A DNA stretch of 64,000 nt, taken from contig JAFCMP010000547.1 in assembly GCA_017506865.1 (NCBI GenBank), positions 744,001-808,000 of the forward strand, given 5' to 3'. This document shows, one piece after another, positions 456 to 60,432 of the stretch. How positions within the stretch are numbered: the first letter of the stretch is position 1; each line of letters opens with the position of its first letter. The position numbers and the translations under genes are program-made. The DNA comes from Tribonema minus. Lineage: Eukaryota > Sar > Xanthophyceae > Tribonematales > Tribonemataceae. The notes under the pieces were generated by a model, which saw only the letters and a list, made by a program, of their open reading frames with translations, was not told where the DNA came from and did not search any database.

Positions 456-3400
456 ATGGCATCGACTCAATTAGCATGCCCCGGAGACAGGCTAGGCAGG
501 GCGAGCGAGTTCACAAGCGGGCCAGGAACATATACCAGGGGGCCGCACATATTCGCGTCTCTCGTGGGACCCGTGCTGCAGCAGGAGGGGGCGGAAGGGG
601 GGTTGCCGGTGATAACAGTGCGCGGCGGGAGGAACGCGCAGGATCAGGTCAGTTGCATCAAGGTTATTAACCACAGGTTATGGCAATATGGCTGCAGTGG
701 TCTCGAAGGCGACGACGTTGCGTGGATGTGTGCCTGTGAGCTCCTGGGGCTAGGGCCAGGATGAACCGCAACATCTGTTCATGCCTCACCTGCAGCGGTA
801 CACATGGCGGCACGGGATTTCAGGCAACAGTTCCCTGCTTGCGGGCCGCGCATTGGCAGAGCGACATGAGATCACACGTGTGCGCGTACTGTTGCAGTGC
901 TCCGCGGCCGTAAGATCTGTGCACGTGTTTCATGAGAAGTGCACGCATCTGCATACATGCACTTGCAGAGATGCACTCTATGCATGCAACAAGGAGTAGA
1001 TGAATCTTGAGAAAATGAGAGTGAGCGACAGCAAGGTAGACCATGAAGTTGTGAACCTATATTTTCTTTCATTGTTGAATCGGCCAGGTGAGCAGCGGTG
1101 GTCACTGTAGAATTGCGTGTTCGTTTGATTCATGCTTGTTCTATGCGTAATACAAAGCATACTAGATGCATTATTTGAGCGCGCACTGTGATGCCCTCGG
1201 CAGTAGTGACATAGTGGATACTGCGTCGTTGTCACGCGTGTCTGTGTTCAGCCTGCGCTCAGTACTACTCCCAAGTACTTTGAAAATGCCATGATCGTAC
1301 CTGGTCCTATCAAGCTATTGTGCGGTTGTGTTGCAACTATTTTCAGCATGATAACTCCAGCCTTTCAAAAACATTGTTCAAATTGGAAGCATGCTTAATA
1401 ATAATGGTTGCCCACTTAACCCCTGCTACACTACTGCGAGCAGGTAATAGAGGCGGCAAAGAGGTCATGGCGCGCGTGAACATTCTGAACATATTCTCAC
1501 CTTGAATCACTACTTTGATTACGTATACTCGTGCCGCAACTTGCCCTGTTCCCGCGGCACACCACTGCGAGCAGGTGATAGAGGTCGGCGACGTGGTGAT
1601 GGCGCGCATGATCACACATTTTCACCTTGAGTCATTGCTTGAATTATTTCACCTGAAGACACATCCTCACCTGGAATCATCATCTTGAATTCATTACTCA
1701 AATTACTTCACCTGAAAACACATCCTTACCTGGAATCATTATCTTGAAGTCCTCTCCTTGTGCTATAACTTGCCTTGCCCCACTACGCACAGGTTATAGA
1801 GGTTGGCGATGTAGTCATGGCGCGTGTCACACGCGTGCGAGCGCTGCTGGCGTCCGTGGAGATACTGTGCGCGGGGGAGACGGTGCTGCGGGAGGCGTAC
1901 AACGGCATCATCAAAAAAGAGGTATGCGATGCGCGGCGCTCTGCTCATGAACTAGGTTGAAATTGAAGTTGAAGTTTCAACACCACGTGCGAGCGCTGCT
2001 GGCGTCGGTGGAGATACTGTGTGCGGGGGAGACGGTGCTACGGGAGGCGTACAACGACATCATCAAAAAAGTGGTACTCAGCTCATGAACTTGAAGTTGA
2101 AATCAAAGTTGAAGTTTCACCACGTGTGCGCGCGCTGCTGGCGTCCGTTGAAATAATGTGCACGGGGGAGACGGTGCTGCGGGAGGCGTACAACGGCATC
2201 ATAAAAAAAAAGGTATGCGGAGCTGAGCTCAATAATTGAAAATGAAAATTGAAGTTAAAGTTTCACCACGCGTGCGCGCGCTGCTGGCGTCCGTGGAGAT
2301 ACTTTGCGCGGGGGAGCCGGTGCTGCGGGAGGCGTACAACGGCATCATCAAAAAAGAGGTATGCGCTGCATTCGGCAGATGAACGCCATCTTTAAGATCA
2401 AAATGAAGTTTCACCACACGCAGATACTATGCGCGGGGGAGACGGTGCTGCGGGAGGCGTACAACGGCATCATCAAAAAAGAGGTATGTGCGGCGCTCGG
2501 CTCATGAGCTTGAAGTTGAAGTTTCAGTTGAACTTTCACCGCATGCAAACACTGCAGCACTACGGCACCGCAAGGAAGAGGCTCACACGTCGCGCGGCGA
2601 TGCCGTGTTGCTGAGTGGGTGCCTGGCGTGCTTTGACGACATAAGCGATTTGGCTACAGGACCTGGGCACCTTGTAGAAAGAGTGGGACTGTGTCGATGG
2701 TTCATCGAAACTCTTTTGCGGCCTGTGCGAGAACTTGTCCCCTGAAGTTGAAGTTGGAATTAAAGTTGTGGTGTTATGCGGCTGTGCCCACACTCTTTGC
2801 CTGTGGAGGCGACATCGGAGTTCCCACCTCATGCGCCAGTGGTCAATGAGCATACGTTAGGTTCAGCTCCTGATGCGTCAGGGTGTGCGCAACAGGCTCA
2901 ATGAAGGGCCATTGGTTCCCACTGATGCTGTCCGCTTTCCTGCACGTCAGTCTCACAGAGAGTGCCGTAGCCAGAAGGCGTGCTCAATGCTCAGGCTGCA
3001 TTACGTGTCAGCACAACGTAGGTAACCTCCCGCATGTACGCAAGCAAGCCTGTTGAGCGAAGAATGATCACACTACTGCAAAGCACTATGAGCTATCGAG
3101 CAGTGTGTCCAAGCATCAGAACGCTCAAGAATCAGAGTGATCAGGATCGGAGCTTGCATCAGCTGGTCAGCGCCGCGCAATTAGCGGCACGTACACGCTA
3201 CCCACGCACACGCTACCTACCGTACCGCTCCACCCCGCGGATGCGCTCAAAGCCGGATCTCGGGCCCGAGAATAAACTATCTGCTCGCCACGACTCCTCA
3301 CCAGAACACTCCCCCCACCCCCTCTGACGGCAGCTGCTCCCCCCCCCCCCTCCCCCCCCCCCCTTCCCCCAGGACGTCAGAGCCACCGAGGTCGACAGAG

Positions 3401-3630
3401 TCGACATGGGGCAGTCCTTCCGTCCCGGCGACATTGTGCGCGCGCGCGTATCATCGCTAGGCGACGCGCGCCAGTACTACCTCACCACCGCGGCGCCGGA
3501 TCTGGGCGTGCGGTGGGCCAAGAGCGACGCCAGCGGCGCGATCATGGTGCCCGTGTCGTGGCAGGAGATGCAGTGCCCGGTGACGGGGGTGCGCGAGCCG
3601 CGCAAGTGCGCCAGGCCGGACGCGTCGTAG
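456..3630 (+). CDS. CSL4: Exosome complex component CSL4 (EXOSC1), three exons
   Basis: CSL4 is a cap subunit of the RNA exosome, the 3'-5' RNA-degrading complex. Exons are 456-647, 1793-1921 and 3373-3630, all phase 0 with GT-AG borders, giving 192 residues against about 195 in animals. Exon 1 holds the N-terminal domain (PGDRLG, then GTYTRGPHIFASL). Exon 2 begins the S1 domain (EVGDVVMARV, VEILCAG) and ends IIKKE. Exon 3 continues DVRATEVDRVD, SFRPGDIV and the zinc-ribbon-like tail with MQCPVTG; stop is TAG. The start at 456 rather than 396 fits the family, which has about ten residues before PGERL. The last intron ends in a very long poly-C tract (3341-3370). Exon 2 is surrounded by partial copies of itself. 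The family assignment is firm from colinear motifs and joins. Confidence 0.93.
1432..1612 (+). repeat. Acceptor-side copies of CSL4 exon 2
   Basis: Two partial copies (about 1436-1480 and 1566-1610) of the acceptor and first 35-40 nt of CSL4 exon 2. Each keeps a GAGCAG acceptor followed by a relative of GTTATAGAGGTTGGCGATG and ATGGCGCGC, then runs into unrelated intron sequence (TTCTCACCTTGA-like). They precede the true exon at 1793 and cannot encode the rest of it. Confidence 0.85.
1984..2488 (+). repeat. Donor-side tandem array of CSL4 exon 2 (4 copies)
   Basis: Four tandem copies of the last 60-90 nt of exon 2 plus its donor and the start of the intron. Copy ends (exon|GT) fall at about 2073, 2212, 2358 and 2483, against 1921 for the true donor, so the spacing is 125-152 nt. 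The first copy has lost the GAG|GTATGC context (AAAGTG|GTACTC). The others keep GTATG donors. Read-through from the true exon meets TGA at 1958-1960, so a distal donor would give a truncated protein. Copies are separated by TTGAAGTTGAAG-rich intron sequence. Confidence 0.9.
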
Positions 3631-4530: not shown

Positions 4531-7500
4531 TCATTCTTCCGCCATGTCAGCGGGGCCCGTTGTTTCCCAGCCGCCAAGGTCGCTGACGCCAAACTGCAGC
4601 GGCGTTGCCTCCAGGGTGTCCAGGTCGATCAGCACGACTTCGCCGGTGGTCGCAAACGACGGGACGCAGACCACGCGCACCTGCGCAGCGCGGTTGAGAA
4701 GACCCTAGAGCGTCAGAAATGCGTACTTCAATGTTGAAGAAAACAACACTAGTGAGATTGGTGTGAGGTGACTGGTCAGATGACTCCAGTGCGGTCAAGT
4801 ACCCGGAGCAAAAATAGGGGGGAGGGAAGGATATGATGAGCACCTGCACAGCGCGATTGAGAAGACTCGAGAGCGTCAGAGGCGTACTACACTTTAGAAG
4901 TATAGGCATACCTCACTTTTGAAGTGTAGGCTTTGCAACGAAGTCTAGTGAGAGTGGCATGTTGTGATGGTCAGCTGTCTCCAGTGCGATCAGGTACACT
5001 GAGCAAACGACGGGACGCAGACCACGCGCACCTGCATAGCGCGATGGACAGGACTATAGAGCGTCAGAGAGGCATACTTTGCTTTTCAAGTACAGGCATA
5101 CTTCACTCTTAAAGTATAGGCAATACTTGACTTTTGAAGCATGGGCGTGCTTCACTTTTGAAGTATAGGCTTCACAAACTCCAGTGAGATTGGTACGTGG
5201 TGACTGGTCAGCTGTCTTCAGTGCGATAAAGTACACTGAGCAAACAATGAGAGGGGGCACACGATGAGCACCTGCACAGTGCGATTGCGAGGATCCGAGA
5301 GCATCAGAGAGGGACGCGCTTTGCGCCACAGCAGTGTCTACTTCAAAAGTACTTCATCGTGTTGTGACTAGTCGGGTGTCTGCAGTGCGCCCAGCCACAT
5401 TAGCAAACGATGGGACGCAGACGGTGCGCACGTGCACAGCGCATTTGAGAGCTCTCAAGAGGGTATGTAACAGCTGTGTCGCAAGTGCCGCCGGTTGCCA
5501 CGTCAAACCCAAGTTGAGCACCAAGGCCCTGTCTACAGCCAACATTTCGTGGAGGCTCACCTGTAGCCACCTTTCACCTAACAAGCAAGACGATATACAC
5601 ACCTTCCGCTGGCCGTCGCAGCCCTCGACGAGCCGCGTCGCCACGTGCGGCGCTGGTTGCGCGCAAATGAAGTACAACAAGTAGCCTGTGTCCGCACACC
5701 CCACGTACCATAGAAAGTCACCAAGGACTAAGCTTAAGAGTATGCATACCTTCTGACCGTCCTGGCCCTCAGCGAGGCGCGTCGCGAAACGCGGCTGGTC
5801 GCCTGCCGCCCGCGAAGACGAAAGTTGAGCATTGAGGCCCTTTCTACAGCTGATGTCATTAAGTTAATCTGTAGCCACATCATAGAAGAAGGTATACATA
5901 CATACATACATACATACAGAAGAAGGTATTCATACTGCACATACCTTCTGCTGGCCGTCGTGGCCCTCCACGAGGCGCGTCGCGAAGCGCGGCTGGTTGC
6001 CCGCAAAGAACACATGCGGGCACTCCTCCAATACAAACGGGTCCTCGGTGAGGAAGGGGTAGCACCCCAGCGTGTCGGGCGCGGTCGGCGCAATGTGCTG
6101 CCACCGCAGCATGTTCTCCAGCATCTGCAGACGGCGCGCGCTGTCGCTGCGGCGGCGCAGGGCGCAGAGGGCATTGGCAGAAACGGCGTTGGTTGCGGGT
6201 CTTTGAATGCTTGTGGGAATAAATGCGGTAACCGACTCCGCTGCCAGCGCATCCTGTTCTCTAGCATCTGCCGGCAGCATGCGCTGCCGCTGCGGCGGCG
6301 CAACGCGGCAATACACAGGGGGTCTCAGCATGAAGAGTAGCACAGTGATTGTGTGTCTTTCAACGCGCGAGTGCACGTGCACGTGAGACTGCTCATCTAA
6401 CGTTCGACTGGGCCGCCACCAAAGTATGTGCTCCGGCATCTGCAGGCGGCGCGCGCTGTCGCTGCGGCGGCGCAAAACACGGAGCGACGTCAGCATGAAC
6501 AGTATTGCAGTCAGTTGCGCGTCTTTGTGTGCGCATGTGTACGTGCGCATGAGAGTACTTGTGTAATGGTTGACTGGGCTGCCACCGCAGCATGTTCTCT
6601 AGCATCTGCAGGCGGCGCGCGCTGTCGCTGCGGCAGCGCAGGGCACAGAGGGCATCGGTTGAAACAGTGTTGGTGGTGTGACTTTGAATGCGCGTAGGAC
6701 GATACATGGTGCTCGGTTTTTGGCTGCCAACATCACGCCTTCTCTCCAGCCTCTGCAGGCGGCGTTCGCTGCTGCTGCGGCGGCACAACGTGGCGATACA
6801 CACGGGGTGTGAACATGAAAAGTAGTACAGTCATTGTGCATCTTTGAGTGCGCGAGAGCACATGCGCACAAGAATGCTTTCATAATGGTCAACTGTGCTG
6901 CCACCGCAGCAGGTTCTCCAGCATCTGCAGGCGGTGCGCGCTGTTGCTGCAGCGGCGCAGGGCACAGAGGGCGCCGGCGGAAACAGCGTTTGTTGCGTGT
7001 CTTCGATCGCGTGTGGGCATATACGTGGTGCTCGGCTGCGCTGCCCACTACTAGGCATCTGCAGGCGACGTTCGACGCTGCAGTGCACACGTGCCGAGAC
7101 ACAGAGGGCGTCTGCCCGAGTAGTTGCAGTCGGCTGAGTGCCTCAGAGTGTGCGACTTTATGTGCGCGCAGATAAACATGTGGTGGTTGACTGGGCTGCC
7201 ACCGCAGCATGTTGTACATCACGTGCAGGCCGCGCGCGCTGTTGCTGCGGCGGTGGCACGGTGGGGGACGCAGGGGGTACAGGGCGCAAGCGGCGATGCA
7301 ATCGGTTTCGTACCCAAAGGCAGCGCCTGCTTCACACCTACAGCGCAGATGCCGAGGAAATCACACGATTTCCGTGCCTGGCGGGCATAACTGCAACCCT
7401 TGCAGGGCAGCTTCAGTGTGTGGTGTTAGAGGTCGCGGCCACTGCGGTGCGCCAAAAAGCACCTGTGGGCGATTCGAGGCATCGCCGAAGCAGGTACATG

Positions 7501-10500
7501 ATGTGTTGATGTAAGGGAGAAAGGGTCGAGCTGCTGCGTGCTTATCTGACCATCCGCAGCGCGTAAAACCATGAGCAGTAGTACAAGCTGCTGGAAGCAA
7601 AAAAAAGCCAACTTTGACTGTTTCTCCACTTGCACAAGCATCTACATAATAATCACTTCTTTGCAATACCAGCCTGCCCTGGTCTAGTGCTGTTCTGCAC
7701 TTTGCATTGGGTCCACCTTGGGTGTCCTACTCTGCCACGGTGTTTAGTTTCGTCAGGTTAAACAAAAAACTACGCACCCCTCGTTGCCGCCCGCCCCCTC
7801 CTCCGCCGCCGCCGTGTACTGCAGGATCTCATCCAGCGGCTGGCCCGCCATGCCTAGCACGAGATCTTACTGACAAACACCAACTGGCACCACCGCCATC
7901 ACATGGAGAGAGGTCGCAAGTCCAACTGCAACTTCAACATGAAGTACGCACCCCTCGTCACCGCCCGCCCCCTCCGCCGCCGCCGTGTACTGCAGGATGT
8001 CATCCAACGGCTGCCCCGCAGTTCCGAGCACGAGACGCGTGCCCACCCACGCCTCATGTGGGTTCGTCGCGAGGCGCGCATTCGGGTAGCGCGACGCCAG
8101 CGGCAGCAGGCACGGGTGCAGCGGCTGCTGCGGCAGCATGTAGTTGGAGGCGTCGCTCGCGCCGGGCATGATGTCCACGGGCAGCGCCGCCGCGACCTGC
8201 GCGGCGAGTCGAGTCACCGAGTCATGGCGTCGCATGAGTATGATTGGACGGGGCTTTTGTTGTTTCTGGATAGCCCACATTCACAAGAGCATAACTTTAT
8301 GTTTCTTTCAAGAATGTACACCGCGCTGCAGCAGACTGTAAGTTGGAGGCGTCGCTCGTGCCGGGCATGATGTCCACGGGCAGCGCCGCTGCAAACTGCG
8401 CGGCGAGTCGGAGTCATTGAGTCATGATGCTGCACGAGTACGTTCGGTCGGATGTTGCCTTTACGTTGCTGAATAGCGCGCTTTCGAAAGAGCATATGTG
8501 CAGCACGCTGCGGCAGCATGTAGTTGGAGGCGTCGCTCGCGCTGGGCATGATGTCCACGGGCACCGCGACCTGCGTGGCGAGTCGGGGGCATCGAGTCAT
8601 GATGCCAAGTCTGTCTGTTGGCCATTAGCGACACCATCACGACGGCAATGCTTTGACTTGGCGATTGCACAATATGAGCCATAGAGTCATCTGACGACCA
8701 GAACCACGATAATGCGCAGCCAGCTGGCAACTACTCAGCAAGCCATACAGTTCTGTCAACACGCAACCTGTTGCGTAAATGGAAAGCTACATAGTGCGAG
8801 CGCACGTTGTCGACAGTCGCAACATTTGCACGTGCATCCCACGCATGCGGCCAGGCATGCGCCGGTCCAAAGCTGCACGAGTACGGCCGGATGTATGAGT
8901 ACGGTCGGATGTTGCCTTTGCTGTTCCTGATGAGCCCGCTTTTAAAGGAGCATATGTACGGCCCGCTGCAGCAGAGGGTAGTTGAAGGCATCGCTCGCGC
9001 CAGGCATAATGTCCACGGGCAGCGCCGCCGCGACCTGCACGACGAGTCGGAGTCACCGAGTCATGGCGGGACGTCCTGCATCAGGCCGCGCTCGCCGCAT
9101 GCTGTCGGAGTCATCGAGTCACGGTCATTGCTCAAGTACAGTTGCTGTACCTCTTCTGTGCCCACATGAATGTTGAGAACCCGAGGGAGCAAACGAACAG
9201 AGTGGAGCAGTTGCACATTACGAAAAGCGTTGCTCGTGTCCGCATGACGTCCACGGGCAGCGCCGCTGCGACGTGTGGCGAAGCAGAGACATAAAGTCAT
9301 GGTCATTGCGTGCAGTTACACGACAATTGTGGTGCGTTAAAAAGTGTAGCACATTCACGGGGATCACGTAAAGAGAGGTCCGGAAGCATGTAGGCCGAAG
9401 GCCACTTGCGCCCGACATATCTCTACGAGCATTGCCGCTGTGATTGGCAGCGAGTCAGGGTCATCGAACAATGGGCTGCGCGGCATTGCGCGCTGCACTG
9501 CTGCTCAGAACAACGGGCTGAGCGGCATTGCGCGCTGCGCTGCTGCTAACTCCTGATCTCATCCCGACCCTAACCCTGATTCTAATCGGGACCCCAACCC
9601 TAAGCCTATGCTAGCTCTAGGGCTTCACCTGTGCGAGCTCCGCATCACACTGAGCGGTGCTGCTAACACTAATTCTAGTCCCAACTCTGGCCCTAGATGA
9701 TCTTTGTCCGCACCCTAGCCCTACAACGATCATGTTTCACTAAACCTAACTCTAGGGTCTCACCTGCGCGAGCTCCGCGTCGCACTCCCGCAGTGGTGCC
9801 GTGCGCTCGCGCTGCTGCTCGGCGCTGAGTTTGCCGCTGCCGATGGAGCCGCTGGCGGCGCCGGCGAGCGGCGGCGGCGGCGCGGCCGCGCTGTTGCCGC
9901 AGACGACCACCCTCACGACGCGCGCAATCTGCAGGGACCGACCGCACAATATAATTTATAGATAATATGTAACGAAAACGAACCAAAAGATAGTAGAGGT
10001 CTAGGTGACAAAGCATGGTTAGCCGCAAGTGCCTTCCACCAATTTAATACTTCGAAGTATTGTTTGTCATGGGCCATGCGCGTGCATGCCTCTCAATGCG
10101 GTGGCATGGCGTGCAGACTGGGAGATGAAGCTGCACTCGCAGCTAACCGTAACCCTAACCTCAAGTGTGCGGCACGAGGGCATGTACTGCATCGGCGCGG
10201 CCGCGCTGTTGCTGCAGTCTACGGGGAGCACCAGAAACCACCAACGAGAATATGGTGGTTATATCGCACATAGCGGGCTCCGGTCTCTATGTCTCTGCAC
10301 ACGGCCGTCGATATCCTGGAGTCCATTTGCGCTTCACGGTGCTTCATGGCGCTTCACCTTCGCCGTACAACGAGCATTGCGCACATTCGGACTGACAGGC
10401 GGCAGACTGTTTCGCCACGCCGACATGCGCCCTCCACTAGAAGCTCCGCATCATCTTGAAGTACGCATCGCGCTGACCTGCTCGTGATCGCCAGCGCCGC

Positions 10501-13500
10501 CCAGGTTTATATGAACATAGAAACGAATCAAACGATCGTAGAGCTCTAAGTTACAAAGTGTGGTTAGCCGTAAGTGCCTTCCACGTATATATATACACAT
10601 ATACATTGCGCCCCCTACTTCATCTTGAAGTACGCATCGCGCTGACCTGCTCGTGATCGCCGGCTCCCCCTAGGTACCCCGCCAGGTGGTCCAAGAACAG
10701 GCGCGTGGGCAGGGGGTCTTGCGGCCCTCCCGCGAGCATCCCCGACACCAGCAGCAGGCAGGCGCCGGGGGGGTGCGCGGCACCCTCTGGGGGGGACGGC
10801 TGGGGGGGCAGGCCGGGGGGGCACCAAGCCTCAACTGCCATGTCGCCGTCGGCGCGAACTGAGCCGCGCACCGCAACGACGATGCCTGTTGGAAGGTCCT
10901 GTTTGTGTGGAAAAAAGCGCACCAGAAAGAGTGTAAACATAGGGTGTGAGGGCCAGGCTTAAGGTCAGGTTTGGCCGACCACAAACCCCAGGTGAACAGC
11001 TGAGATCCCATTTGATTGGGGAAGAGGGGGCCAGAAAGAGTGTGAAGTATTCGCAAATAGTGTAGAGTAAAAGTAGGTGTCATGCCTAGGTCGGCGCGCA
11101 CTGCTGCAGCAGAGCAATGGCTGGTTGCTTGGAGCCGCGCACCGCAACGGCGATGCGGTGGGTGTGGGCAGGTCCTGCGTGATGACGCAGAAAACAGGAA
11201 TGAGTGCGCTCTTAGGGCTGCGCGTAGCTTGAGGTTTGTACTGTCAGCGAACATTCCATGAGGACGGCTTCACATGGCGTTTCTCAAAAACTTCAACTAT
11301 TGAAGTTGCCCTGCCCACCCCTGTGCTTCGATGCCCGCAGGCAGTCCCTGCTGGGACAGCGCGCCGGCGCCGCAGGCCGCACGTCTCAGCGCCAGCACGG
11401 CTCAACCCATTATCCCCTACTTGAAGTTCGAACCCCTTTAAAACGAACTGCCAGCACTCAGTCTGTTGAAGATGTCCACCTGCCCGCACCGGCACAACAC
11501 ATGCGATCATGGAATTAGCTTGGCCAGGTCAGCCGCTTCACCTCAATTTGAACAGTCTCCCTCAAAAACTTGAGTATTCATAACGCGCACCTGCAACGGC
11601 ACGGCATCGTCGGTCCTGGTATCCCCGTGGCAAGGTTGAGCCGGCCGAAGTCGTCCTCCAGCAGCAGCACAGTCGACCGCTCAACCTCAAGTTGAAATGT
11701 AACTTCAACAATTCAACTTCAACAGTAGTACGCCTGCGCCGGCATGACGTCGGCAGGCGTGGTGTCGGCGGCGAGGTTCAGCCGGCCAGAGTCTTTCTCC
11801 AGCAGCAGCGAGTCGTCGGGCGCGGCAAGTCGCCGCGCGGCACGCCAATGGCCTCGCTTCAACTGCAGGAAACTTTGTACTTCTATAGTAAGTCCAATTT
11901 GCAACGCACACACCTGTGCCGGCATGACATCCGGGGTCGTAGTGTCCGCTGCGAGGTTGAGCCGGCCGGAGTCGTCCTCCAGCAGCAGCGAATCATCAGG
12001 CGCGGCAAAATCGCCGCGCGGCACGCCAATGGCCTCGCTAATGCCGCGCTCATCGCGGTACTCCACGAGTACGCTCGGGCGCAGGCGCATGGTCTTGTAC
12101 AGCGTGCCGATGCAGACGCAGGGGCCGCTGCCGCCCGCGCCGTCGGCGTTCGCCTGCGCGCGCATGTAGCAAAGATAAAGGACGCGTGCGCCCGAAAATT
12201 AGCGCGAATCCAGCGTGAACTGGCGCAGTTGCTTCGTAACACAGCACTCCGTTGTGGATGGCAGACATAAAAGTAGAAGTACACAACTGCCGCCGCCGCC
12301 CGTGCCGTCGGCGTTCGCCTGTGCGCGAATGCAGCGTGGATTAGCGCAGTGACTTCACAACACTCCGTCGTGGGTGGCAGACATGGATGTGTACGACTGC
12401 CGCGCATGTTGCGGTGGTTGGCGAGGGAGTGCCGCTGCCGCCCGCGCTGTCGGCATTCGCCTGCGCGCGAATTGAGCATGAATTAGGGCAGTGAGTTCGG
12501 GACACAACACTCCATTGGGAATGGCAGACATGGGAGTATACGACTGCACGCTGCGGTTGCTGGTGAGGGAGTGCAGAGGAGCGCAGCTGCCACCCGCGCC
12601 GTTGGCGTTTGCCTGCGAGCGAATGCAGCGGCGGATGATGAGAGGACGCGTACACCCGTGAATTAGCGCAGTGACTTCACAACACGCCGTCGTGGGTGGC
12701 AGGCATAGAAGTGTACGACTGCCGCGCATGTTGCGGTGGTCGGCAAGGGAGTGCAACTGCCGCCCGCGCCTTCGGCGTTCGCCTGCGCGCGAATCGAGCA
12801 TGAATTAGTGCAGTGAGTTCGGGACACAACACTCCATTGGGAATGGCAGACATGGGAGTATACGACTGCACGCTGCGGTTGCTGGTGAGGGAGTGCAGAG
12901 GAGCGCCGCCGCCGCCACCCGTGCCGTCGGCGTTTGCCTGCGCAACGTAGGCGCATGCTACCGTCAGGACATGAGGCTGCTGGCGGCAATGGCCACGTGA
13001 ATGAGGTACATGGGAGGGGGGGGAGATGCCATTTGGTTATGTCGTTTACATGTGATCGTCAATGCACATTGAGACACTTGCGAGTTTTCAAAAGACACGT
13101 GTAGATTCTGGTAGCACGCTGGACATCTACAATCTGGGCTTTTTCGAGCCCTCAGCGAGCATCAATACAAAGTACATGGGAGTGCGAGGCCCACGGATAT
13201 TTCATGACAACAGCCAGTAAGATGCAGCGCCGCCATCATCGAGCGCGTCCCAGGGCAAATTGTCGCGCCAGGCGACGCTTGGACTATGAGTCAGTGACTG
13301 TCTATGACGCATAAGAGTTGAAGTATGATGCAGAACAGCCGTTCATTGCTGTGATGAGGCAGAGCTGCACATCAAACGAGTGTTCAGCGACTGTCCACAC
13401 GGCGCATTTGCTGTGAGTGATGATCATCACCATTTCCTGTACTCAGAGCGCAAATCAGCGAGAACGAATACATGCATACATACAGTGCTGGCATACCTGT

Positions 13501-14865
13501 ACGAGCCGTTCGCAGCGCCGCAGCTGATCTCCGCCCCTGCACGAGAAAGGGAAGTTCAAGGCAGTGAGCAATTTACGATTAGTCAACTGCAACTGAACAT
13601 ATTCACAATGGGCTTTACGCCTGGTGTGTCTAGTGGTTTCTAAACGACGAAAGTTCAAAGCGGTGGACAAATCACGAGTCAGCAACTTCAATAGACCACC
13701 TTGAATGAGCCCCAGTTCAAAAGGGCCGTTTGTGCGCGCAGAGCGCTGTCGCGACGTTGCAGCAGCAGCAGCGCTCAACGCATGCGTGACATGGTGACAG
13801 TCGCTGCTCGCATACATGTCAACAAGCATGGCCCTTCAACTCAAAGGCAGGTTTGATGCACCAAGTGACATGACATACTGATGCTGCGCACGTGCCTGCA
13901 TGCACACTGCTTCATCTTCAAGACCTCCGCTTTCGCTACAAAAGTGCATGCGCTGCGAAGTATGCAAAGTGCGCGCCAGGGGCGCTACACTACTTCAGGG
14001 CATCCGCTCTACATTACATACAAACCTTCCGGGCATACATACCCGCAACGCACCAGAGGCGCCCCGCCTTGGCACGATCACACGCATACATTCATATGCT
14101 TGGGCGCTCTAACTCAAATGGTAGTGTACGCAGCGCACCGGAGGCTGCCTCGGCGGCAACACTTCGACCTCAGAGTACCCTCTAACACTACCTACTTCAA
14201 CTTTAAGAGTGCTCTCTTTACATGCATACATACATACTGTGCAGTATACGTACCACAGGCGCTCCGCCTGCGCACACACACACGCGTACCGACTCGCATA
14301 CGTACGCACTGACTCAAACCTTAGTCTCCGCGACGACACACCAGAGACGCACTTGGCCACACTACTTCAACTTCTAGGCATGACCTCAGCGCATCAGCAA
14401 TCCACAGCAAGTCGTACCTCTGGCAGCTACAACACTCTCTCAACAATGGCAACTGCGTGGCATTTGTACACACAGTCTGCCATTTGCCGCTCAGTGGGAT
14501 TCAACAACATGGTTCTTCGAGTGCACATTTCTGAAGGTACTCAGTACATGCAAAGCCTCCATCAAACTGCATCATGTTGAAAGCATTGGCTGCATTGATT
14601 GCTACACATGAGCACTGCGTAGTTTATATACATACCACAGGCGTTCCGCCTCAGCCGCGGCCGCGGCGCGCAGGCGCGCGAGCCGCCGCGCGTAGATGTG
14701 ACTGTACTGCTGCTTGAACTCGCGGCGCCGCAGCGTGAAGCGCTGGTCGTGCGGCGTGTACGTGGCCTCCAGGCGCGCGACCTGCCCCTCCGGGGTCCCC
14801 CCGGACGGCACCTTCTTAAACTTCAATGTTGAGGATGGGGCCAGCGGCTGCAGCACGGACGCCAT
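4531..14865 (-). CDS. POLD2: DNA polymerase delta small subunit (POLD2/p50), seven recognised exons
   Basis: POLD2 is the B-subunit that holds the delta replicative polymerase together. Exons in transcript order: 14865-14636, 12153-11914, 10898-10647, 9928-9764, 8196-7952, 6146-5945 and 4680-4531 (TGA). Colinear family motifs: RFTLRRREFKQQYSHIYARR (exon 1), GTLYKTMRLRPSVL and LLLEDDSGRLNL (2), GIVVAVRGSVRADG and LLLVSGM (3), VVCGNS (4), LPVDIMPGASDASNYMLPQQ and LHPCLLPLASRYPNARLATNP (5; 21-residue run split here), APTAPDTLGCYPF and ECPHVFFAGN (6), VVCVPSF (7). Exon 1 ends in phase 2 (TG of Trp) but exon 2 is read in phase 0, and about 7-10 conserved residues are missing between them. A microexon in the 2.5-kb first intron is likely but was not found. 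Junctions 2-3, 3-4, 4-5, 5-6 and 6-7 keep frame. Almost every exon edge is copied in the neighbouring introns. Confidence 0.92.
4820..5465 (-). repeat. Acceptor-side copies of POLD2 exon 7 (4 copies)
   Basis: Four copies of the exon 7 acceptor and the following 20-40 nt of exon, with acceptors near 4843, 5031, 5271 and 5431 (true acceptor 4680). Each shows a relative of the minus-strand sequence GCGCTGCGCAG|GTGCGCGTGG; two also keep the stretch coding for the conserved VCVPSF region. Spacing is 160-240 nt. Between copies lie TACTTCA/TTGAAGTA-type motifs. Confidence 0.85.
5583..5818 (-). repeat. Donor-side copies of POLD2 exon 6 (2 copies)
   Basis: Two copies (about 5585-5655 and 5740-5815) of the last 60-70 nt of exon 6, the part coding around RFATRLVEG, with a donor-like end. 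They lie just downstream, in transcript order, of the true donor at 5945/5944. Confidence 0.85.
5891..5918. repeat. (CATA)n microsatellite
   Basis: Short run of CATA/ATAC tetranucleotides inside the POLD2 exon 6-7 intron, followed by a GAAGAAGGTAT copy. Confidence 0.8.
6240..7260 (-). repeat. Acceptor-side tandem array of POLD2 exon 6 (7 copies)
   Basis: Seven copies of the exon 6 acceptor plus its first 25-50 nt (coding DSARRLQMLENML). Acceptor positions are about 6290, 6460, 6626, 6773, 6946, 7078 and 7240, against 6146 for the true one. Spacings are 144, 170, 166, 147, 173, 132 and 162 nt. All resemble the minus-strand GCGCCGCCGCAG|CGACAGC. Divergence grows irregularly, and most copies carry frame breaks or lose the exon body. 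Confidence 0.9.
7616..7760 (+). mobile_element. Solo 3' part of a TRIM-family LTR
   Basis: About 145 bp nearly identical to the 3' half of the LTRs at 37.2 and 38.7 kb (from GACTGTTTCTCCACTTGC to TTTCGTCA). It also keeps five bases (GGTTA) that follow the 5' LTR there, so it derives from a 5' LTR with the start of the primer-binding region. It lies in the POLD2 exon 5-6 intron. Confidence 0.85.
7767..7866 (-). repeat. Donor-side copy of POLD2 exon 5
   Basis: One roughly 100-nt copy of the end of exon 5 (coding around GQPLDDILQYTAAAEG) with its GTGCG-type donor, about 185 nt from the true donor at 7952. Confidence 0.85.
8320..9290 (-). repeat. Acceptor-side copies of POLD2 exon 5 (4 copies)
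   Basis: Four copies of the exon 5 acceptor and its first 50-80 nt (coding VAAALPVDIMPGASDASNYM). Acceptors are near 8396, 8570, 9034 and 9272 (true 8196). The block GTCCACGGGCAGCGCCGC recurs in at least three of them. Each copy is followed by a GAGTCGGAGTCA-like intron segment that was copied along with it. Confidence 0.88.
9550..9760. repeat. Donor-side copy of POLD2 exon 4 with degenerate telomere-like stretch
   Basis: 9614-9670 copies the end of exon 4 and its donor (minus-strand GCGGAGCTCGCACAG|GTGAAGCCC; true exon end 9764). Around it, 9550-9605 and 9700-9755 hold degenerate CCCTAA-type units (CCCTAACCCTGA, CCCAACCCTAAGCC). Confidence 0.75.
9955..10038. repeat. Dispersed repeat, copy 1
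   Basis: AT-richer segment with the core ACGAACCAAAAGATAGTAG, then AGGTCTAGGTGACAAAGC and GGTTAGCCGCAAGTGCCTTC. A second copy lies at 10505-10590, and part of it recurs in another gene at 43235-43280. The two POLD2 copies could come from an intron duplication; the third shows the sequence is dispersed. Confidence 0.7.
10193..10236 (-). repeat. Acceptor-side copy of POLD2 exon 4
   Basis: A stretch close to exon 4's inner 5' part (plus-strand GGCGCGGCCGCGCTGTTGC) lies about 270 nt upstream, in transcript order, of the true exon 4. The acceptor itself is poorly kept. Confidence 0.55.
10447..10590 (-). repeat. Donor-side copy of POLD2 exon 3 and dispersed repeat copy 2
   Basis: 10447-10505 duplicates the end of exon 3 with donor (plus-strand CGCATCGCGCTGACCTGCTC and the following ATCTTGAAGTA motif; true donor side 10647). 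10505-10590 is the second copy of the dispersed repeat seen at 9955. Confidence 0.85.
11132..11182 (-). repeat. Acceptor-side copy of POLD2 exon 3
   Basis: Copy of the exon 3 acceptor and first 45 nt. It reads minus-strand ACGCAG|GACCTGCCCACA and continues to GTTGCGGTGCGCGGCTC, as in the true exon starting at 10898. The shared CAG|GACCT border supports the chosen acceptor. Confidence 0.85.
11470..11862 (-). repeat. Donor-side array of POLD2 exon 2 (2 clear copies, 1 remnant)
   Basis: A long copy at 11734-11860 repeats the last 110-120 nt of exon 2 (coding APDDSLLLE, DSGRLNLAADT). A second lies at 11587-11672, and a short remnant near 11470-11490. The first copy lies exactly 180 nt from the true exon end and the reading frame stays open between them; it ends in a GC rather than GT donor. 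Using it would add 60 codons in frame, including a second version of that segment. Confidence 0.85.
12283..12945 (-). repeat. Acceptor-side tandem array of POLD2 exon 2 (5 copies)
   Basis: Five copies of the exon 2 acceptor and its first 35-50 nt (coding ANADGAGGSG) with acceptors near 12313, 12457, 12609, 12781 and 12935 (true 12153). Spacings are 144-172 nt, mean about 156. Intron pieces such as TGAATTAGCGCAGTGACTTC and GACACAACACTCC are copied with them, so the repeat unit spans the junction. Confidence 0.9.
13017..13171 (+). mobile_element. Divergent 5'-truncated retrotransposon tail
   Basis: Old copy of the last 150 bp of the retrotransposon at 20-26 kb. It starts in the stretch coding EMPFG near the C-terminus (GAGATGCCATTTGG) and ends CTGGGCTTTTTCGAGCCC, CAGCGAG, ACAAAGTAC. 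Flanking duplication GTACATGGGAG at 13006-13016 and 13172-13182. It lies in POLD2 intron 1, antisense to the gene. Confidence 0.85.
14031..14370 (-). repeat. Donor-side copies of POLD2 exon 1 (about 4)
   Basis: Copies of the last 20-30 nt of exon 1 and its donor near 14040-14075, 14120-14160, 14250-14280 and 14335-14360. Each looks on the minus strand like GCGCCTCTG|GTGCGT or GCCTGTG|GTACGT. They agree on a GTRYGT donor after CTG/CTSTG, which fixes the end of exon 1 at 14636. Confidence 0.7.
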
Positions 14866-47190: not shown

Positions 47191-47204
47191 CGGCACAGTC
47201 GCCA

Positions 47205-47275
47205 TTGCTCACTCTGACTCACCTGCGTCAGCGAAGTCCAGCTGCCTGTGCTCCTGTCTACTCTTCTGGTATGCC
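47205..47275 (-). repeat. Donor-side copy of the 47.4-kb exon of the jacalin gene
   Basis: Copies the end of exon 47452-47359 with its CAG|GTGAGTC donor and nearby intron (GTGATCAAAAGCG also duplicated at 47095 and 47300). Confidence 0.85.
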
Positions 47276-50200
47276 ACAGTGTCCAACTACTACATTGCTC
47301 GTGATCAAAAGCGCTATACTTACTAATCGCTATCATATGATTGCTCGCTTTGACTCACCTGCGTCAGCGAAGTCCAGCTGCCTGTGCTCCTGTCGAATCT
47401 TCTGGTCGGCCACGGCATCCAGGTGCCTCCCTGGGAGAGCACCGCCTACTGCCTGCAAGCATCAATATTGCGTTTTAGTGGTGAACCTCAAGCCTTGAAG
47501 GTTTCTGTTATAGCTGGCAATGGTAGCGTACATGCACAAAGCACAAACGTCCAGGTCTGTGTTGCAGCACCATGTCTGCAGTGTACAAGCTCTTGGGGCA
47601 CACTGCGATTGCTGCATGCAAATCAAACCCATGCCAGTGGCAAACCAACACTACGTCGGTGGATCAGACCCGATCAACGCATGCCGGCAGGATCGGTTTG
47701 GCGGGAGGTATTATTATGTGGTTGATTGACTGTAATTGATCAAAACACATTTTTTCTGGATCCTGCTGGAGGTGGTGATCCAACTGATACCAGCATTTAT
47801 TTTGGAATGTGGCCACCCTACAGTAAAAAAAATACTTCTGAAGTAATATAAATGTTCTAATTATTCCAGGTTCGAATTATTTTTTGGCTTACTTCTATCA
47901 GTAAATTGGGCAAATAATTCCTTTGACAAAAAGTTTGAAAGCATCTGCCAAGCCGGCCTCCGTACACAAAATGTATGCCTTGGGCCTGGGGCTGAAACGT
48001 TTCATCAATGCATGCCATGTCCACGAGTAAACTCCCATTCGTCACACCAATCATTTTCATGCGGTATGTTGAAGTTCTGTGTAGGGCTATCTCCTAACTA
48101 TATTGCAGCATTGATGTGCGCAATTGTGCAATAATTTACCATATTGTTTGTGTTTGCACCCCTGGCCGCTTTCAAAGTAATTGGAGGCTGCAGCCTAAGG
48201 CTTTTGTTTTGACTTCAACACCATTGGCCACACTGTTGCGTCAACACTGGCTTTAAGTTGCTGGTGCCATGCAACAAATTACACGAAGTGCAAGTGTGCC
48301 ACCGTGTGTTCTGAGATGGAAATATCTACGGTTTGAAGCATATGACACTTTCATGCTCATTGCCGCCGTTTGCACGCTTGACGGTAATGGCAGTTACACT
48401 TGCCGGCACACAGACCGCAATACAATCACTTCTAGCAGCACACGACTGGCGTCGGCCAGCTTGAAGTTCTGTTGCATTAGTCACCTTAATGTCTGCGAAG
48501 GCCGGTAGTAGGGCAAAGTGAGCGGCAGCTCGCTACGTTGCATTGCATCAATATGCTTAGGATATATATATATATGACTGCAGAAATGATCAGAAACTTG
48601 AAGCAAGAGAAGTGGTCTGTAAAAAGATGAACCAATACATGCCTGCGGGAGGCTGAGCGCCTTCATATTGATCAGGCTCCTACCACGCACATCAACGGAA
48701 AGAAATGCATTGTTTTCAAAGTTTTTCAGCCTCGAAATATCACGCAGCTCATTTTGGCTCTCTGTCGATGTTTAACTACAACGGAATTTCTGTTCCGTGC
48801 AGCAGCAGCTGTAGCAGACCCATTGCTGGCATACAATCGTACAACCTCTGTTACGGCAACCAAGAGTATCATCGTTCATGAGTGCGTAATCTGTTTTGGA
48901 ATATAACAATACGAGAATTCACTCAATTGATCATGATGCCAATGCACTATTATGCGCAAAACTATAGGCGGGGAAGGGGCCTAGTCTAAGCGTGCTAGAT
49001 TTGTTCAGGTACGTACCTTCTCGTAGTCAGCAAGGCTTGAAAATGAGCCAAGCACTGCAATGAGGTTGGCGCCAGTGTCGTTGCCGTTCATAACCGCCTT
49101 TGCATTCTCGATGACCACATTCAGGTCGGGAAGAGCTGAAAATTTGAGCTCACGTTGGCTTGGCCAGCCAGTAGCATGTGCTTCCGCCTTCCACTCAGTG
49201 TGTTTGGTCAACTCCTGCCAGTGCACAAGGCATTGCAGACCAGTGAGGTTCCTGTATGTTGCACTTTAAGTTGATGGTTATGATTTGCATAAGGTCCAGC
49301 TTAAGAGAATACAAAAACTGTTAGCAGTGCTAGCTGCACAAGTTTAATCGGTGCTCCATGCCAGCCGGTATGCGTGTAGTACTTGTGAAACCTGTCCTTA
49401 CTGACTCAACAAGTTTTTCAATAACTGCACTGCGGCACCAATTATTAGAGAGGCAACCCAGTTTTTCTCTCTCAGCAAAGTCATAATTCGAAGTAGCGTG
49501 CTCATGTACTCATACACTGGTACGTGTCCATATGAATGCTGCGAGAGGTGGGCATGCCTGTGTCCGCGAGTGTCACAGTGGTGAATTGCATGATATGCAT
49601 CGCATGCAGCACACAAATCAATAGCAGCAGCCGCTGCGGCATGCCACTACGTCTTATCCTTCATGAATAATCCACGCAGTGAACCCATCAAGCTGAAAGC
49701 CGCCGTGATGTGCAGCACTGCTGTCAATACCTGTCGAACTACAGTTGTGTCTCTACAGCTACTTGTAAATTGAACTTCTAGGATTAGGGTTCGAATTAGG
49801 CTCAATCTCACCCTGCTCAAAGCTGGTAAGCCTGTCTGGTTGCGCAACCGTGACGAAGTGGCAGACATCGCACGTCCATCGGTAGCTATAGTATACAGTA
49901 CCACCAACCATCAACCATCGTGGTTTTCCCCGTGTTAACACTCTAAGCACCGACAGAAATCCGTATTAAATAAAGCAGAACAGACAATGTATGTGGTACT
50001 GCTTATTTATCAGCAGCGGGACCGAATCGGAGAGGTGTTTACACGTTGCCTCCCACAGCACGTAACACGCACCGGTTAACGCGTTCGGCGCAGCGGGCCA
50101 CCGGTCGCAGGTTAGAACCGGTACAAAAACTTGTGCTTGTACCGGGTTCAACAGGTTAACGCGCCATCTCTGCTCAATTGCGAGCAATGTTATAGGTGTA

Positions 50201-54695: not shown

Positions 54696-54705
54696 TTCAC
54701 TGTAC

Positions 54706-56162: not shown

Positions 56163-59100
56163 CTACATGGGCGGCGCGGGCGTCGCGGGGTCGAAGCCGT
56201 CAAAGTACGGGTGCTTGAGCGCGCGGCGCGCAGACACGCGCGCGGCGGGGTCGTACACGAGGCACTTGTTGAGCAGGTCGAGGCCCGCGTCGCTGAGGCC
56301 CGGCGCGGCGTGGCGCAGCGACAGGCGCGGCCACGTGGGGAAGATGGCGTTCCAGTCGGGGAGCTTGGTGACCCCCGGCCACGTCGCCTCGCTCGGCGTG
56401 CCGAGCAGCATGAAGATCTTGTACAGCTCGTCGATCTCCGAGTCGCCGGGGAACAGGGGGGCTTTCGCGGCGAGTTCCGCGAGGATCGTTCCCACCGCCC
56501 ACATGTCCATCGGCGGCGCGTACGTCTGGCTGCCGAGGAGGATCTCGGGGGGGCGGAACCAGAGCGTCACGACCTCGTGCGTGAGGGGGCGGATGGGGGG
56601 GCAGAAGGCGCGCGCGAGGCCGAAGTCCGCGAGCTTGAGGCGCCCGTCGCGCGAGACGAGCAGGTTCTGCGGCTTGAGGTCGCGGTGCATGACGCCGCGC
56701 GCGTGGCAGAACTCAAGGCCGCTGAGCAGCTGGTGCATGAAGGACTTGATGGTGAGGGAAGGGAGGGGCCCCTCGTGCGACTCCATGTAGCGCTTCAGGT
56801 CCTGCAATTTGGGGGGGGGGGGGGGGGGTAGGGGAGGGGGGGTTGTGTGAGGCTTTGTACCGGTGCTGCGGAAAGACATTGCCTGTGAAGCTGCATGGAG
56901 GGGAGGTACAGGGTGAGTTGGGGACAGTTGTGAGCCCTGTGTGGCTCCAAGCGAGAATACAAGCTCAGCAGGGGGAAGCAATGTGGAGATATGAAGAGGG
57001 TGCAGCCACTGTTCAAAGCGCTGTTGTGGGGTTGTATGAATGATCTAGACTAGGCGCAGGAGATAATGAAATGTAAATATTGTTTGCCCCATTTAACCAC
57101 TTCACATCTCCCTTGCTTCATTGCCTAGCACTTGGTGGCAGAGGCAGTGAGAGCATGCCATAAGCTACACTTCAACATCACCTCCAACTCTGCCAGTTGC
57201 AGAGCACTGCCGCTCTCTTGCTGACTCTAACCCTAACCCATATCCTTGTCAGAAAGTGGCCTTTCTGGAGTATAATACAAGCGTACTTCAGGCGCGAATG
57301 CCGATGCCTGTTCACACACCATGCGCGCACGCAACGCATCCCAGCTCAGGGTTTGGAGTAGAGCTGCAGCTCCTGAGTCCAAGCCCCAAGTGAGAGCTTT
57401 GAAGTTCTAGCCCTAGGTAAGACGTCAAACTCGTGATACATAAAGTCAGACTCTGTCCTGTCGCACCAAGCACTGCAGTTGCGGCCGCCAGGAGCGCCAA
57501 GCTACCAGTGTCTCTTTTGCAGCTGCTCTGCTGCTGTACTGCGATGTCTGGCGCATGACCCGCTTTGTCCGCAAAGCCTGAAACCCCTGCTGCAACTTTG
57601 GGCAAGTCAAGCACCCTGTCGACAAACCCAAAGACTGCTGATAACATCAAGTCTACGACCACCGTCTATGGACGCCGCTGCCTTTGCACGCAGCTCGCGC
57701 GTGCGACACACTCCCTTGCCCCCCCCCCCCCCCGCTCATCTTGTCGACAAACTGAACAAACAGGTACAGGGGCCCCGCATCATCCAGCTGCCTGTGTCAG
57801 TGCTCCTGCTGCTCTACCGTTCTCCTGCGACGTCCGGCCCCGTCACACACCGTGTACACCAAGTCACAGACTCTCGTACGATGCTGGGCACATCACTCAC
57901 CTTGTCAACAAACTCTAAAGACCAGGTACCCCCCCGCGCCCCAGGCTCACCTTGTGACAAACTCAAAGACCAGGTACAGCTGCCCCCCTCCAAGCTCGCC
58001 TTGTTGACAAACTCAAATACGACGTACAGCTTCAGGCTCCCAAGCTCACTTTGTTGAAAAACTCAAAGACTAGGTGCAGCCCCCCACCCCCCACCCTTCA
58101 GCTCACCTTGTCAACAAACTCAAATTCAAAGACCAGGTAGCGACCCCCCCCAACCCCCCCCCGTAAGCTCACCTTGTCGACGAACTCAAAGACCAGGTAC
58201 AGGCGCCCCGCGGACTGCACGCAGTCCTGCAGGTCGACGATGTTAGGGTGCTGCAGCTCGCGCAGCACGGAGATTTCCCTGAGCGCTGTGGAGGGGATCC
58301 CCTCGTCCTCCAGGTCCGTGCGGATGCGCTGCGCGTGCGCGCCACGACACAATGCAAATGTTGAGAGATGACATTACGCGACACATGCAAGAAGTGAGAG
58401 ATGGGATTACAGACAGACGGCGAGGGTTCGTGAGGCGTCGGCGTTGACGCATGCGCCTGTGGAGTGGACGCGCACCCAGGAGTAGGTGTGCGTCGTGTTT
58501 TAGGGTTAGGTTTAGTTGGGGTTAGGTTCTGCAGCAGCTGTCTGTTGATTCGTTACTGTGGGTATGTATGAGATGGGGGGGGGGGGGGGGGTAAGAGCAG
58601 AAGGGCCCCCGGGGAATCAGATGGCGTTGGTTTGTTCGACGTGCGCGCTGCGGACGCCGCGCGAAGCCGAAATCGCACCCAGGGAAGTGTCAAGAGGCGC
58701 TGCCGGTGTGTGCACCATGGGACCGAGCAGCACCCGGAGGTTACTCGCAGGGGGGGGGTTGTGAGGCGTTGTCAGCGTGTGCGCTGCGGACGCCGCAGGA
58801 CACGGTCGTCGCACACAGGGAGGTTGGAACGAGCCCTTGTCAGCGTGCGCGCCATTAGAGCGGATAGCATGCGGAGCTTACAGACATGGTCGGTATGTTT
58901 GTGGGGGCATTGTAAGCCTGTGCATCACATACGCCGTTCTTGAAGTTGTGTGAAGCAGCGTGCATGGAGCGCGCTGTTTGTGCTCATGCGTGAATTGAGT
59001 AGTCCACAGATACGGCGTGTATTTGTTGTGGGATGTATCGCTGAAGGTGTTGCAAGATCCTGGCAACCTCCGCGGCTGCGTAGGCACGCTGTGCATAAAG

Positions 59101-60432
59101 AACGAGAAAGTGGATGTCTGCGACTTCATTTCAAACACGTTACACGTGCAAGCAATGACACGGCACGCTGTGATGTGCACTGAGCGGAGGTCCCCCATTG
59201 TACCCGTGCTACTGTCGCGCTGATTCGCGGCCGCGCATGGCATGCCGCAAGGTACGTGCAATGCCTGGAACATCAGGAACATCACATGCCTCGTCACAAC
59301 GTGTTTCACTTCAATGTGATGATGTTCGCACGCTTTTCTGACCGCGAGCGCATACAGCAACACCACATGGCATACCATGCCTTGCTGTTGAACAGTAAAT
59401 CTTGGCATAACCTTCAGTGAGTGAACCCGATGCACATTGCTGCAGAAGCCAGTGTGACGCGCTCAGTATCATTTCAAGTCAAGCTAGGTACCCCCCCCTG
59501 CCTGAGCAAAATGCGGTGTCAGACGAAACACCGGCGGGCAGCCAGCGACACACGCTGTGCAGCTGCAATTCGCGGCACTCGGTCGTTGTGAGGAAATTGA
59601 CGACGAGTGCATTCAGATCTGTCATTGCCACCGTCAGTCTCGCTATGTGTGGGTGTCTGCATTGCAGTGTATAGTTATAATTCTTTATAAGCCTGGCCCA
59701 ATGCGCAGAGCACAGAATTTCATAAAGCCCTGACACTGGCTGGTGCAGAGCATTGATCAAAATCCTGCTCTTTGAGGCTCAAGTTGCGCTTTTGTGATGT
59801 TTGCGTCATCTGGACAGAAGCGCCTGCTGACGGCGCCTTTTGCCCTTTCTGCGTGCAATAGATGAGCCATGCGAAAGTGCATTGAACGCTCGGTTGTGCG
59901 CAATTTGCGGCATTGCATCCACTGGGTCGTGTAGAGTATACGCAAGGCACTTTTGCACTGTCCGTGGGGATGAGCACTAGGCAGTTGCTGAATGCCATTG
60001 TCCGTCCTTCTGCTAGTTTATCAACTGTGAGGCCAGTCACATTGGATTTGGCGTCTCTGAAATGCAAAAACGACCAGACGGGCCAACTGCCAACTGCGCT
60101 AGAGGCGGCTGCTCACAGGCTGACGTGACCGTACCGCTACACCACTGAAGCTCGCTCGGCTCAATAGTTATCCAGATGTATTCATGAGATTCCAACGTAT
60201 GCAAGCCATCGGTGACGAACGGGCGGCGGCCGCTGTCTGCGTTGCTTGTTGCTCGGTGTTGTTTATTTTAGGGTCACCGAATGAGTTCGTCTGTTGGAGG
60301 CGCGCTCACCTTGACCGCCACGATCGTCCCTGTCTGAGTGTCCTCGCATTTGAACACTTCTCCATATGTACCGCTGCCGATGCCTGCACTGGACCCCCCC
60401 TTCTCAATCTTCTTGTATCGATTGCCTATCAT
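56163..60432 (-). CDS. Cyclin-dependent kinase, PSTALRE type, three exons
   Basis: Serine/threonine kinase driven by cyclins, of the CDK1/CDK2/CDKA group. Exons 60432-60310 (41 codons), 58328-58173 (52) and 56801-56163 (213 with TAG) join in phase 0 to 305 residues. Gly loop [14 protein letters not shown]-binding Lys in IVAVK; cyclin-binding helix PSTALRE; catalytic loop [14 protein letters not shown] in [10 protein letters not shown]; activating Thr in the segment [10 protein letters not shown]; then RPPE in place of [22 protein letters not shown] and [20 protein letters not shown] follow. All catalytic residues are present. About six extra residues (GGSSAG) precede the Gly loop compared with typical CDKs. 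PSTALRE instead of PSTAIRE leaves the exact class open. Exon 3's acceptor follows a poly-C run of about 28 nt. The exon 2 donor is repeated through intron 2. Confidence 0.94.
57604..58145 (-). repeat. Donor-side tandem array of CDK exon 2 (about 7 copies)
   Basis: Copies of the last 25-35 nt of exon 2 (coding YLVFEFVDK) with a GTGAGC-type donor. Exon ends are near 58107, 58050, 58000, 57951, 57901, 57740 and 57614 (true 58173). The first five are spaced 49-66 nt, shorter than arrays elsewhere. The first copy lies exactly 66 nt from the true donor with no stop between, so using it would add 22 residues in frame, repeating the exon end. Confidence 0.9.
58329..60309. other. CDK intron 1
   Basis: 2-kb intron. 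Weak GTGCGCGCTGCGGACGCCGC-like blocks at 58640 and 58775 may be remnants of the exon 2 acceptor edge. A poly-G run lies at 58574-58592. Nothing else recognised. Confidence 0.4.

Follow-up and report, generated by a model that had tools for sequence, protein, structure and literature searches.

Why do the introns of Tribonema minus, a yellow-green alga of the stramenopiles, contain partial copies of their own exon edges? The question is raised by a stretch of 64,000 nucleotides (nt) from contig JAFCMP010000547.1, hereafter the window, in which exon models were made for six genes: CSL4, POLD2, V-ATPase E, a zinc-finger gene, a jacalin gene and CDK. Such copies occur in many genes, and their spacing, the breakpoints that they have in common and their decay could be observed directly. 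The reading proposed here, to which a probability of roughly 0.6 is given, is that introns of T. minus grow longer because segments spanning a splice junction are repeatedly duplicated in place.

Copies of exon edges inside their own introns

Each junction was represented by a probe of 60 nt centred on it, which was searched for in its own intron with the probe's own site masked. An alignment spanning the junction was required, with a score of at least 44 in the strict test and at least 40 in the relaxed test. At the strict threshold, 15 of the 36 window junctions have a copy (8/18 donors and 7/18 acceptors), distributed over 12 of the 18 introns, and the same probes gave no match in 20 unrelated introns per probe. 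The relaxed test gives 51 copies at 18 junctions, with a maximum of six, reached at the donor of CDK exon 2 and the acceptor of POLD2 exon 7. The exon end and its donor are repeated downstream in the intron, and the acceptor and the exon start are repeated upstream. The repeat pairs of the window are direct in 99 cases, 92 of which are less than 6 kb apart, versus 9 inverted pairs. The exon part of the copies has a mean identity of 89% to the functional edge (5th to 95th percentile, 79–98%).

Junction probes and the repeat list agree with the original prediction, made from the window itself, that all six genes carry partial exon-edge copies together with their splice sites. At least fourteen edges had been named as affected, and the counts of 15 and 18 exceed this number; the "up to seven copies" are reached when the functional edge is counted with its six copies. 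The serial arrays themselves are real, but their placement at "most junctions" was slightly overstated, the actual share being 42–50% of the window junctions.

A second gene set, chosen regardless of repeats, was obtained by searching the genome assembly (158 Mb, 554 contigs) for CCT and MCM genes with the families PF00118 and PF00493. Junctions were set by splice-site score, frame and position in the model, and 43 of 47 placed introns from 15 genes were kept, four being dropped for a score below 8; one pair without an intron, exon pairs with a model gap and the CCT gene on contig C51 were left out. The family search itself already reveals second, partial matches to exon ends (e.g., C51:21979-22089, 22169-22255 and 22346-22639). 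In the strict test, copies were found at 20 of the 86 CCT/MCM junctions, in 17 of the 43 introns and in 8 of the 15 genes, which brings the two sets together to 35/122 junctions; unrelated introns were matched at 0–0.0012 per probe and intron. Among the repeat families of 61 introns, determined like the intron coverage by BLAST with dust, 37 are junction families, 9 touch an exon edge with less overlap and 14 are intron-only. Junction families account for 30% of the intron length in the window and 18% in the CCT/MCM set, and intron-only families for 2% and 5%. Introns with copies are longer than the others (median 1110 vs 649 nt, p = 0.0003).

At the relaxed threshold, the two sets contain 87 copies on 42 junctions, 18 of which have two to six copies. 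The first copy lies at a median of 160 nt, 62 of the 87 successive spacings are 100–200 nt, and the copied exon part has a median of 58 nt (37 junctions). The exon breakpoint is mostly common to the copies of one array, as in the jacalin gene (106 nt, five times) and in two POLD2 arrays (30, 30, 26, 30 and 53, 53, 53, 50, 32 nt), which makes an array look like one crossing event followed by amplification; several breakpoints within an array occur in CDK, CCTd1 and CCTj0. Homology between the intron flank past the splice site and the flank of the source persists in 53 of the 87 copies, indicating that the units are tandem. In MCMf2 and CCTa6, for example, no flank homology was detected, though the exon part is more than 90% identical. 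A stepwise outward growth that leaves the youngest copy closest to the exon is not general, as the more distant copies in CSL4 and CDK align better to the source.

These features suggest the following course. Duplication itself is presumably the event: a unit, typically made up of 30–90 nt from the exon edge together with its splice site and part of the intron, would be duplicated next to itself, which would place the copied junction about 160 nt further into the intron. Splicing would go on using the outermost site, which is continuous with the exon body, as the continuity of the protein suggests, leaving the protein unchanged and the inner copy in the intron. Arrays would arise by later tandem amplification of the unit. 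Exon definition may allow the spliceosome to ignore the unpaired copies, whose inner sites would have no partner across an exon. Breaks linked to transcription or splicing and resolved at roughly nucleosome scale would fit as a candidate cause.

Probable preference for junctions and decay of the copies

A spanning copy was found at 28.7% of the junctions and at 17.0% of deep intron points (at least 150 nt), a ratio of 1.69 (confidence interval, CI, 1.25–2.27); the separate values are 1.87 (window) and 1.89 (CCT/MCM set). The profile of copies peaks at the exon edge and the splice site. Junction copies are thus commoner than copies of random intron sequence, as had been supposed. The same excess could be sought in a tandem duplication that acts uniformly along introns, where junction copies would merely stay recognisable through their conserved exon part. 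Intron-only tandem pairs do exist (11 pairs, besides the 14 families), and the intron part of junction copies decays fastest, so that intron-only duplications of equal age would often be missed. However, when uniform duplication was simulated under constraint on the exons and neutrality of the introns, and scored with the same detector, the junction/deep ratio was only 0.3–0.9 under eight parameter settings, that is, below 1, compared to the observed 1.7–1.9. Moreover, 19 of the 33 non-overlapping pairs of at least 85% identity cross a junction versus 3.4 expected from uniform placement, an expectation that is understated because the aligned length was taken as the unit length. Coding ends without a splice site give a similar indication, although this control rests on 20 edges only, which counts against its weight: copies occur at 0/15 stops, which are equally conserved, and 0/5 starts, versus 35/122 junctions (Fisher p = 0.012 for stops and 0.004 for stops and starts pooled). 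To these edges the proteasome genes contribute only one stop (L046), and in the flanks of the coding ends repeats were found at 18/326 downstream and 1/93 upstream points. Uniform duplication is regarded as unlikely.

The decay of the copies was followed by codon position. The codon counts, with those of private changes, frameshifts and the ratio of nonsynonymous to synonymous change (pN/pS), exclude the jacalin gene, which was added for the best-copy figures. In copies with a known frame, the mismatch at codon positions 1, 2 and 3 is 8.0, 5.4 and 18.9%, and the ratio of position 3 to the mean of positions 1 and 2 is 2.8. The corresponding values are 5.2, 3.0 and 20.3% for single copies and 9.0, 6.3 and 18.3% for multi-copy junctions, while the best copy per junction (39 junctions) gives 4.8, 3.4 and 18.2%, with a ratio of 4.4 (CI 3.1–6.4). 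Changes private to a copy are distributed nearly neutrally over positions 1, 2 and 3 (65/43/72), which indicates that the copies are largely unconstrained and preserve earlier synonymous states of the exon. Rapid change at the functional edge was rejected as a source of the differences, since changes private to that edge at multi-copy junctions number only 1/0/16. The third-position excess together with the loss of flanks means either that the copies were once constrained, or that they were born diverged, or that exon-derived and intron-derived sequences change at different rates.

Birth in a diverged state would result from unequal exchange with, or repair from, another, diverged haplotype that overshoots into the exon as the only well-conserved stretch, and such copies would carry the synonymous changes and the intron flank of the other haplotype. 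A pN/pS of 0.15 in single copies and of 0.33 at multi-copy junctions, measured against the functional edge, is in line with this origin, as are the often unalignable intron flanks and the frameshifts and lost splice dinucleotides, which occur at about the low drift rate. However, a haplotype distance of about 15% or more at third positions would be required, copies of stop edges would be expected as well and were found at none of the 15, and a genome search with the CSL4 array matched its own locus only, with no second haplotype. The jacalin array also shows little third-position bias, its codon positions being nearly even (30/29/38). These results make a haplotype origin distinctly improbable. 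It appears less probable still that selection retains the copies, whether as reserve or decoy splice sites or as alternative edges of the exon. Copied sites do score like real ones, with 34/44 donors and 36/43 acceptors exceeding the 10th percentile of real sites (an outcome towards which the detector is biased), and 23 of the 87 equal or surpass their own functional site in score. The differences are mostly synonymous, and the exon-derived parts outlast the intron flanks, also from copy to copy (0.76 vs 0.67; simulated, 0.77–0.79 vs 0.74–0.76). Read-through to the first copied site is open in some phase in 13/42 cases versus 19% for random intron. On the other hand, GT is kept in 39/44 donor copies and AG in 38/43 acceptor copies, so the copied dinucleotides mismatch at about 6%, similar to codon positions 1 and 2 and no better kept than adjacent bases even though the detector favours kept sites, and 13 of the 78 copies contain a frameshift. 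The exon-side ends are not splice sites (AG at 26/42 vs a background of 49%, GT at 18/40 vs 52%), on which ground mini-exons or alternative exons were rejected. An in-frame extension of exons was rejected too, as the distances show no clear multiple-of-three bias (remainders 0/1/2 of 19/13/10 for first copies and 33/24/30 for all copies) and only 5 of the 42 first copies keep the frame and are open as well. The protein is obtained only with the outermost donor and acceptor, the copies lying always inside the used site. The selected supply of spare splice sites suggested in the original prediction is accordingly not supported. An assembly artefact is scarcely credible: the exon part differs by 11% on average from the functional edge, the copies also differ from each other, and the pattern recurs in 8 more genes, each on its own contig.

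Several results weigh against duplication across junctions followed by neutral decay. Simulated neutral donor copies passed through the same detector give a position-3 ratio of only 1.4–1.9, and the observed intron-flank identity of 0.66 is lower than the simulated 0.78–0.80, so that neutral decay is insufficient; these simulations comprise donor edges only, with one or two copies. The fixed-window flank comparison is sensitive to indel shifts, and the separate flank-homology test described above was therefore added; there, 34 of the 87 copies retain no flank homology at p ≤ 0.01. In addition, 7 of the 15 CCT/MCM genes have no copy at the strict threshold, and longer introns have more room for repeats of any kind. 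Intron points at 30–120 nt from a junction have copies in 12.5% of cases, below the deep-intron value, and exon-derived sequence is easier to recognise than intron-derived sequence, which may inflate the junction excess. One of the controls used first-order Markov resampling instead of exact dinucleotide shuffles.

A higher duplication rate at splice junctions than in deep introns or at intronless coding ends is likely but not proven, given the low counts and the better recognisability of exon-derived sequence. The predicted process acting at splice junctions is thus partly supported, by the excess over simulation and by the 20 coding ends without copies, within these small numbers. A more specific version is put forward tentatively and is rather doubtful: splice junctions might be duplication hot spots in this alga, and a process coupled to transcription or splicing might duplicate segments of nucleosome size (about 160 nt) at active junctions, lengthening introns in a ratchet-like manner and preserving in each of them a dated fossil record of earlier synonymous states of the adjoining exon edge.

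Gene models, positions of the copies and neighbouring features

The gene models other than jacalin (5/6) run from ATG to stop without an internal stop and with GT-AG introns. Up to position 60,000, the frame scans against Pfam took in both strands of 1-15,000 apart from the third plus frame, only the plus strand of 15,001-45,000 and only the minus strand of 45,001-60,000; the assembled proteins were scanned in addition. All genes except the zinc-finger gene are supported by Pfam.

CSL4 (EXOSC1) lies at 456..3630 on the plus strand, with exons 456-647, 1793-1921 and 3373-3630. Its intron 1 contains a copy of the exon 2 acceptor edge at 1562..1617, with a further related stretch at 1428-1521 in the repeat list. 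Four tandem copies of the exon 2 donor edge occupy 1986..2553 in intron 2, with a spacing of 125–152 nt, and three of them reach the relaxed threshold.

POLD2 (4531..14865, minus strand) has eight exons, at 14865-14636, 13536-13497, 12153-11914, 10898-10647, 9928-9764, 8196-7952, 6146-5945 and 4680-4531. The donor edge of exon 1 has a borderline copy at 14245..14269 (score 40, only 16 nt of exon). Acceptor-edge copies of exon 3 extend over 12289..12943, where four were counted and one at 12908-12943 is from the repeat list, and donor-edge copies of the same exon over 11588..11793, with one counted and a weaker second at 11588-11668. Single donor-edge copies belong to exon 4 (10451..10506), exon 5 (9611..9651) and exon 6 (7768..7840), the last of which also has four acceptor-edge copies at 8341..9302. 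Exon 7 has six acceptor-edge copies at 6240..7253 and two donor-edge copies at 5597..5806, and exon 8 has four acceptor-edge copies at 4840..5450. A POLD2 intron also contains, at 7616-7760, an identical 145-nt piece of a 280-nt direct repeat of the window (37179-37457 and 38727-39006, 96% identity, 1.5 kb apart); it is probably a recent mobile-element fragment.

V-ATPase E (28734..31655, minus strand; exons 31655-31503, 31023-30910 and 29135-28734) carries four donor-edge copies of exon 2 at 30222..30833 and two acceptor-edge copies of exon 3 at 29260..29566. The zinc-finger gene (32984..36379, plus strand; exons 32984-33660 and 35932-36379) has two clear acceptor-edge copies of exon 2 at 35323-35397 and 35733-35808, and weak ones at 34066-34139 and 34701-34781. 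Its protein has no Pfam match in the frame scans or in the scan of the assembled protein, so the name of the gene is unsupported.

The jacalin model covers the 3′ part only (41295..47452, minus strand; exons 47452-47359, 45836-45579, 43891-43816, 42948-42811 and 41489-41295). The individual exons read well; the join of exons 2 and 3 is out of frame, and an exon between 45579 and 43891 is therefore probably missing from the model. The exon at 45836-45579 has five donor-edge copies at 44677..45462 with a period of about 175 nt and an identical exon breakpoint, and the exon at 47452-47359 has one at 47204..47277. CDK (56163..60432, minus strand; exons 60432-60310, 58328-58173 and 56801-56163), whose model is 100% identical to an NCBI T. 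minus protein over 305 amino acids, has six donor-edge copies of exon 2 at 57719..58124.

Other features of the introns were also recorded. Very young intron-only tandem duplications lie at 30088-30174 and 43470-43574 (42 nt at 100% and 54 nt at 98%), which indicates that short duplications arise away from junctions too. Telomere-like TTAGGG arrays occur in introns, e.g., at 30437-30473, and are strongly over-represented as 8-mers. The motif TTGAAGT/ACTTCAA is about eight- to elevenfold over expectation in introns, its two forms being present in 22 and 24 of the 61, and its 6-mer core reaches its highest density within 25 nt past the donor (7.2 vs about 2 per kb); TTGAAGT is also present in exons (0.54 vs 0.86 per kb). 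As a breakpoint signal the motif was rejected, with the core at 2/87 boundaries versus a background of 5.6%. Between the genes, an open frame of 1782 codons with a reverse transcriptase domain (PF00078) lies at 20315-25663 on the plus strand, and short stretches from its flanks are found again at 53173-53305 and, in inverted orientation, at 54256-54695. A PD-(D/E)XK nuclease domain (PF13366, E = 4e-22) at about 17307-17636 on the plus strand is perhaps of foreign origin.

Comparison with known systems

Intron lengthening is usually ascribed to transposons. In T. minus, a sizeable share of intron length, 18–30% as far as recognisable, falls in repeat families to which the intron's own junctions belong. 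Should the preference for junctions hold, the mutation that enlarges introns would be shaped by splicing or transcription. The many intact-looking sites inside the used one also allow exon definition in a stramenopile to be examined in a natural setting.

Among single genes, the donor arrays have their closest counterpart in the human interferon-induced gene 6-16, in which, reportedly (Nucleic Acids Research, 1995), a minisatellite gives multiple splice donors, with donor-bearing tandem units said to lie beside an exon. Array units that carry a splice site and derive from an exon edge, the feature attributed to 6-16, are found here at 18 of the 42 junctions, which bear two to six copies each, with GT in 39/44 and AG in 38/43 copies. 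However, 6-16 is one human gene, whereas donors and acceptors at dozens of junctions are involved in Tribonema.

Tandem duplication is an established route to new introns (Hellsten et al. 2011; review PMC3443670). In the AGGT model, a local tandem duplication within a gene likewise supplies extra splice sites. There, an exonic AGGT segment is duplicated and makes a new intron, whereas the Tribonema segment crosses an existing junction, enlarges an existing intron and forms serial arrays in many genes. The counted units cross the junction and include intron, as the probe requires spanning and the search did not extend to exon-internal duplications, and the proteins read through without the copies. 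Introner elements (PMC9860276) resemble the present case as a mass process acting on the introns of one lineage. They form dispersed families common to different genes, whereas the Tribonema copies are private to their own junction: unrelated introns are matched at 0–0.0012 per intron, and the CSL4 array matches no other place. Mutually exclusive exons do not describe the copies, which hold one edge only and whose exon-side ends show no clear AG/GT excess.

Closer in kind are duplications that cross a boundary. In the potato RdRp gene, a tandem duplication across an intron–exon boundary copied the acceptor and the exon start (Ma et al. 2016, PMC4974935), and head-to-tail units made of a splice site with exon and intron parts are found here as well, as the flank homology in 53/87 copies and the common breakpoints indicate. 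The potato case is a single event that gave a new spliced intron with RNA support, with neither an array nor a genome-wide pattern. Variable internal tandem repeats on exon–intron boundaries are also described for human segmental duplicates (PMC2812944), with 27 curated intron modifications in young paralogs, interpreted there as new introns with alternative splicing; in Tribonema, unlike these cases, the genes are conserved and single-copy, and existing introns are enlarged. None of the literature matches listed describes serial junction copies across a genome. Single junction-crossing duplications are thus known, and their serial occurrence as a genome-wide feature is, among those matches, apparently new.

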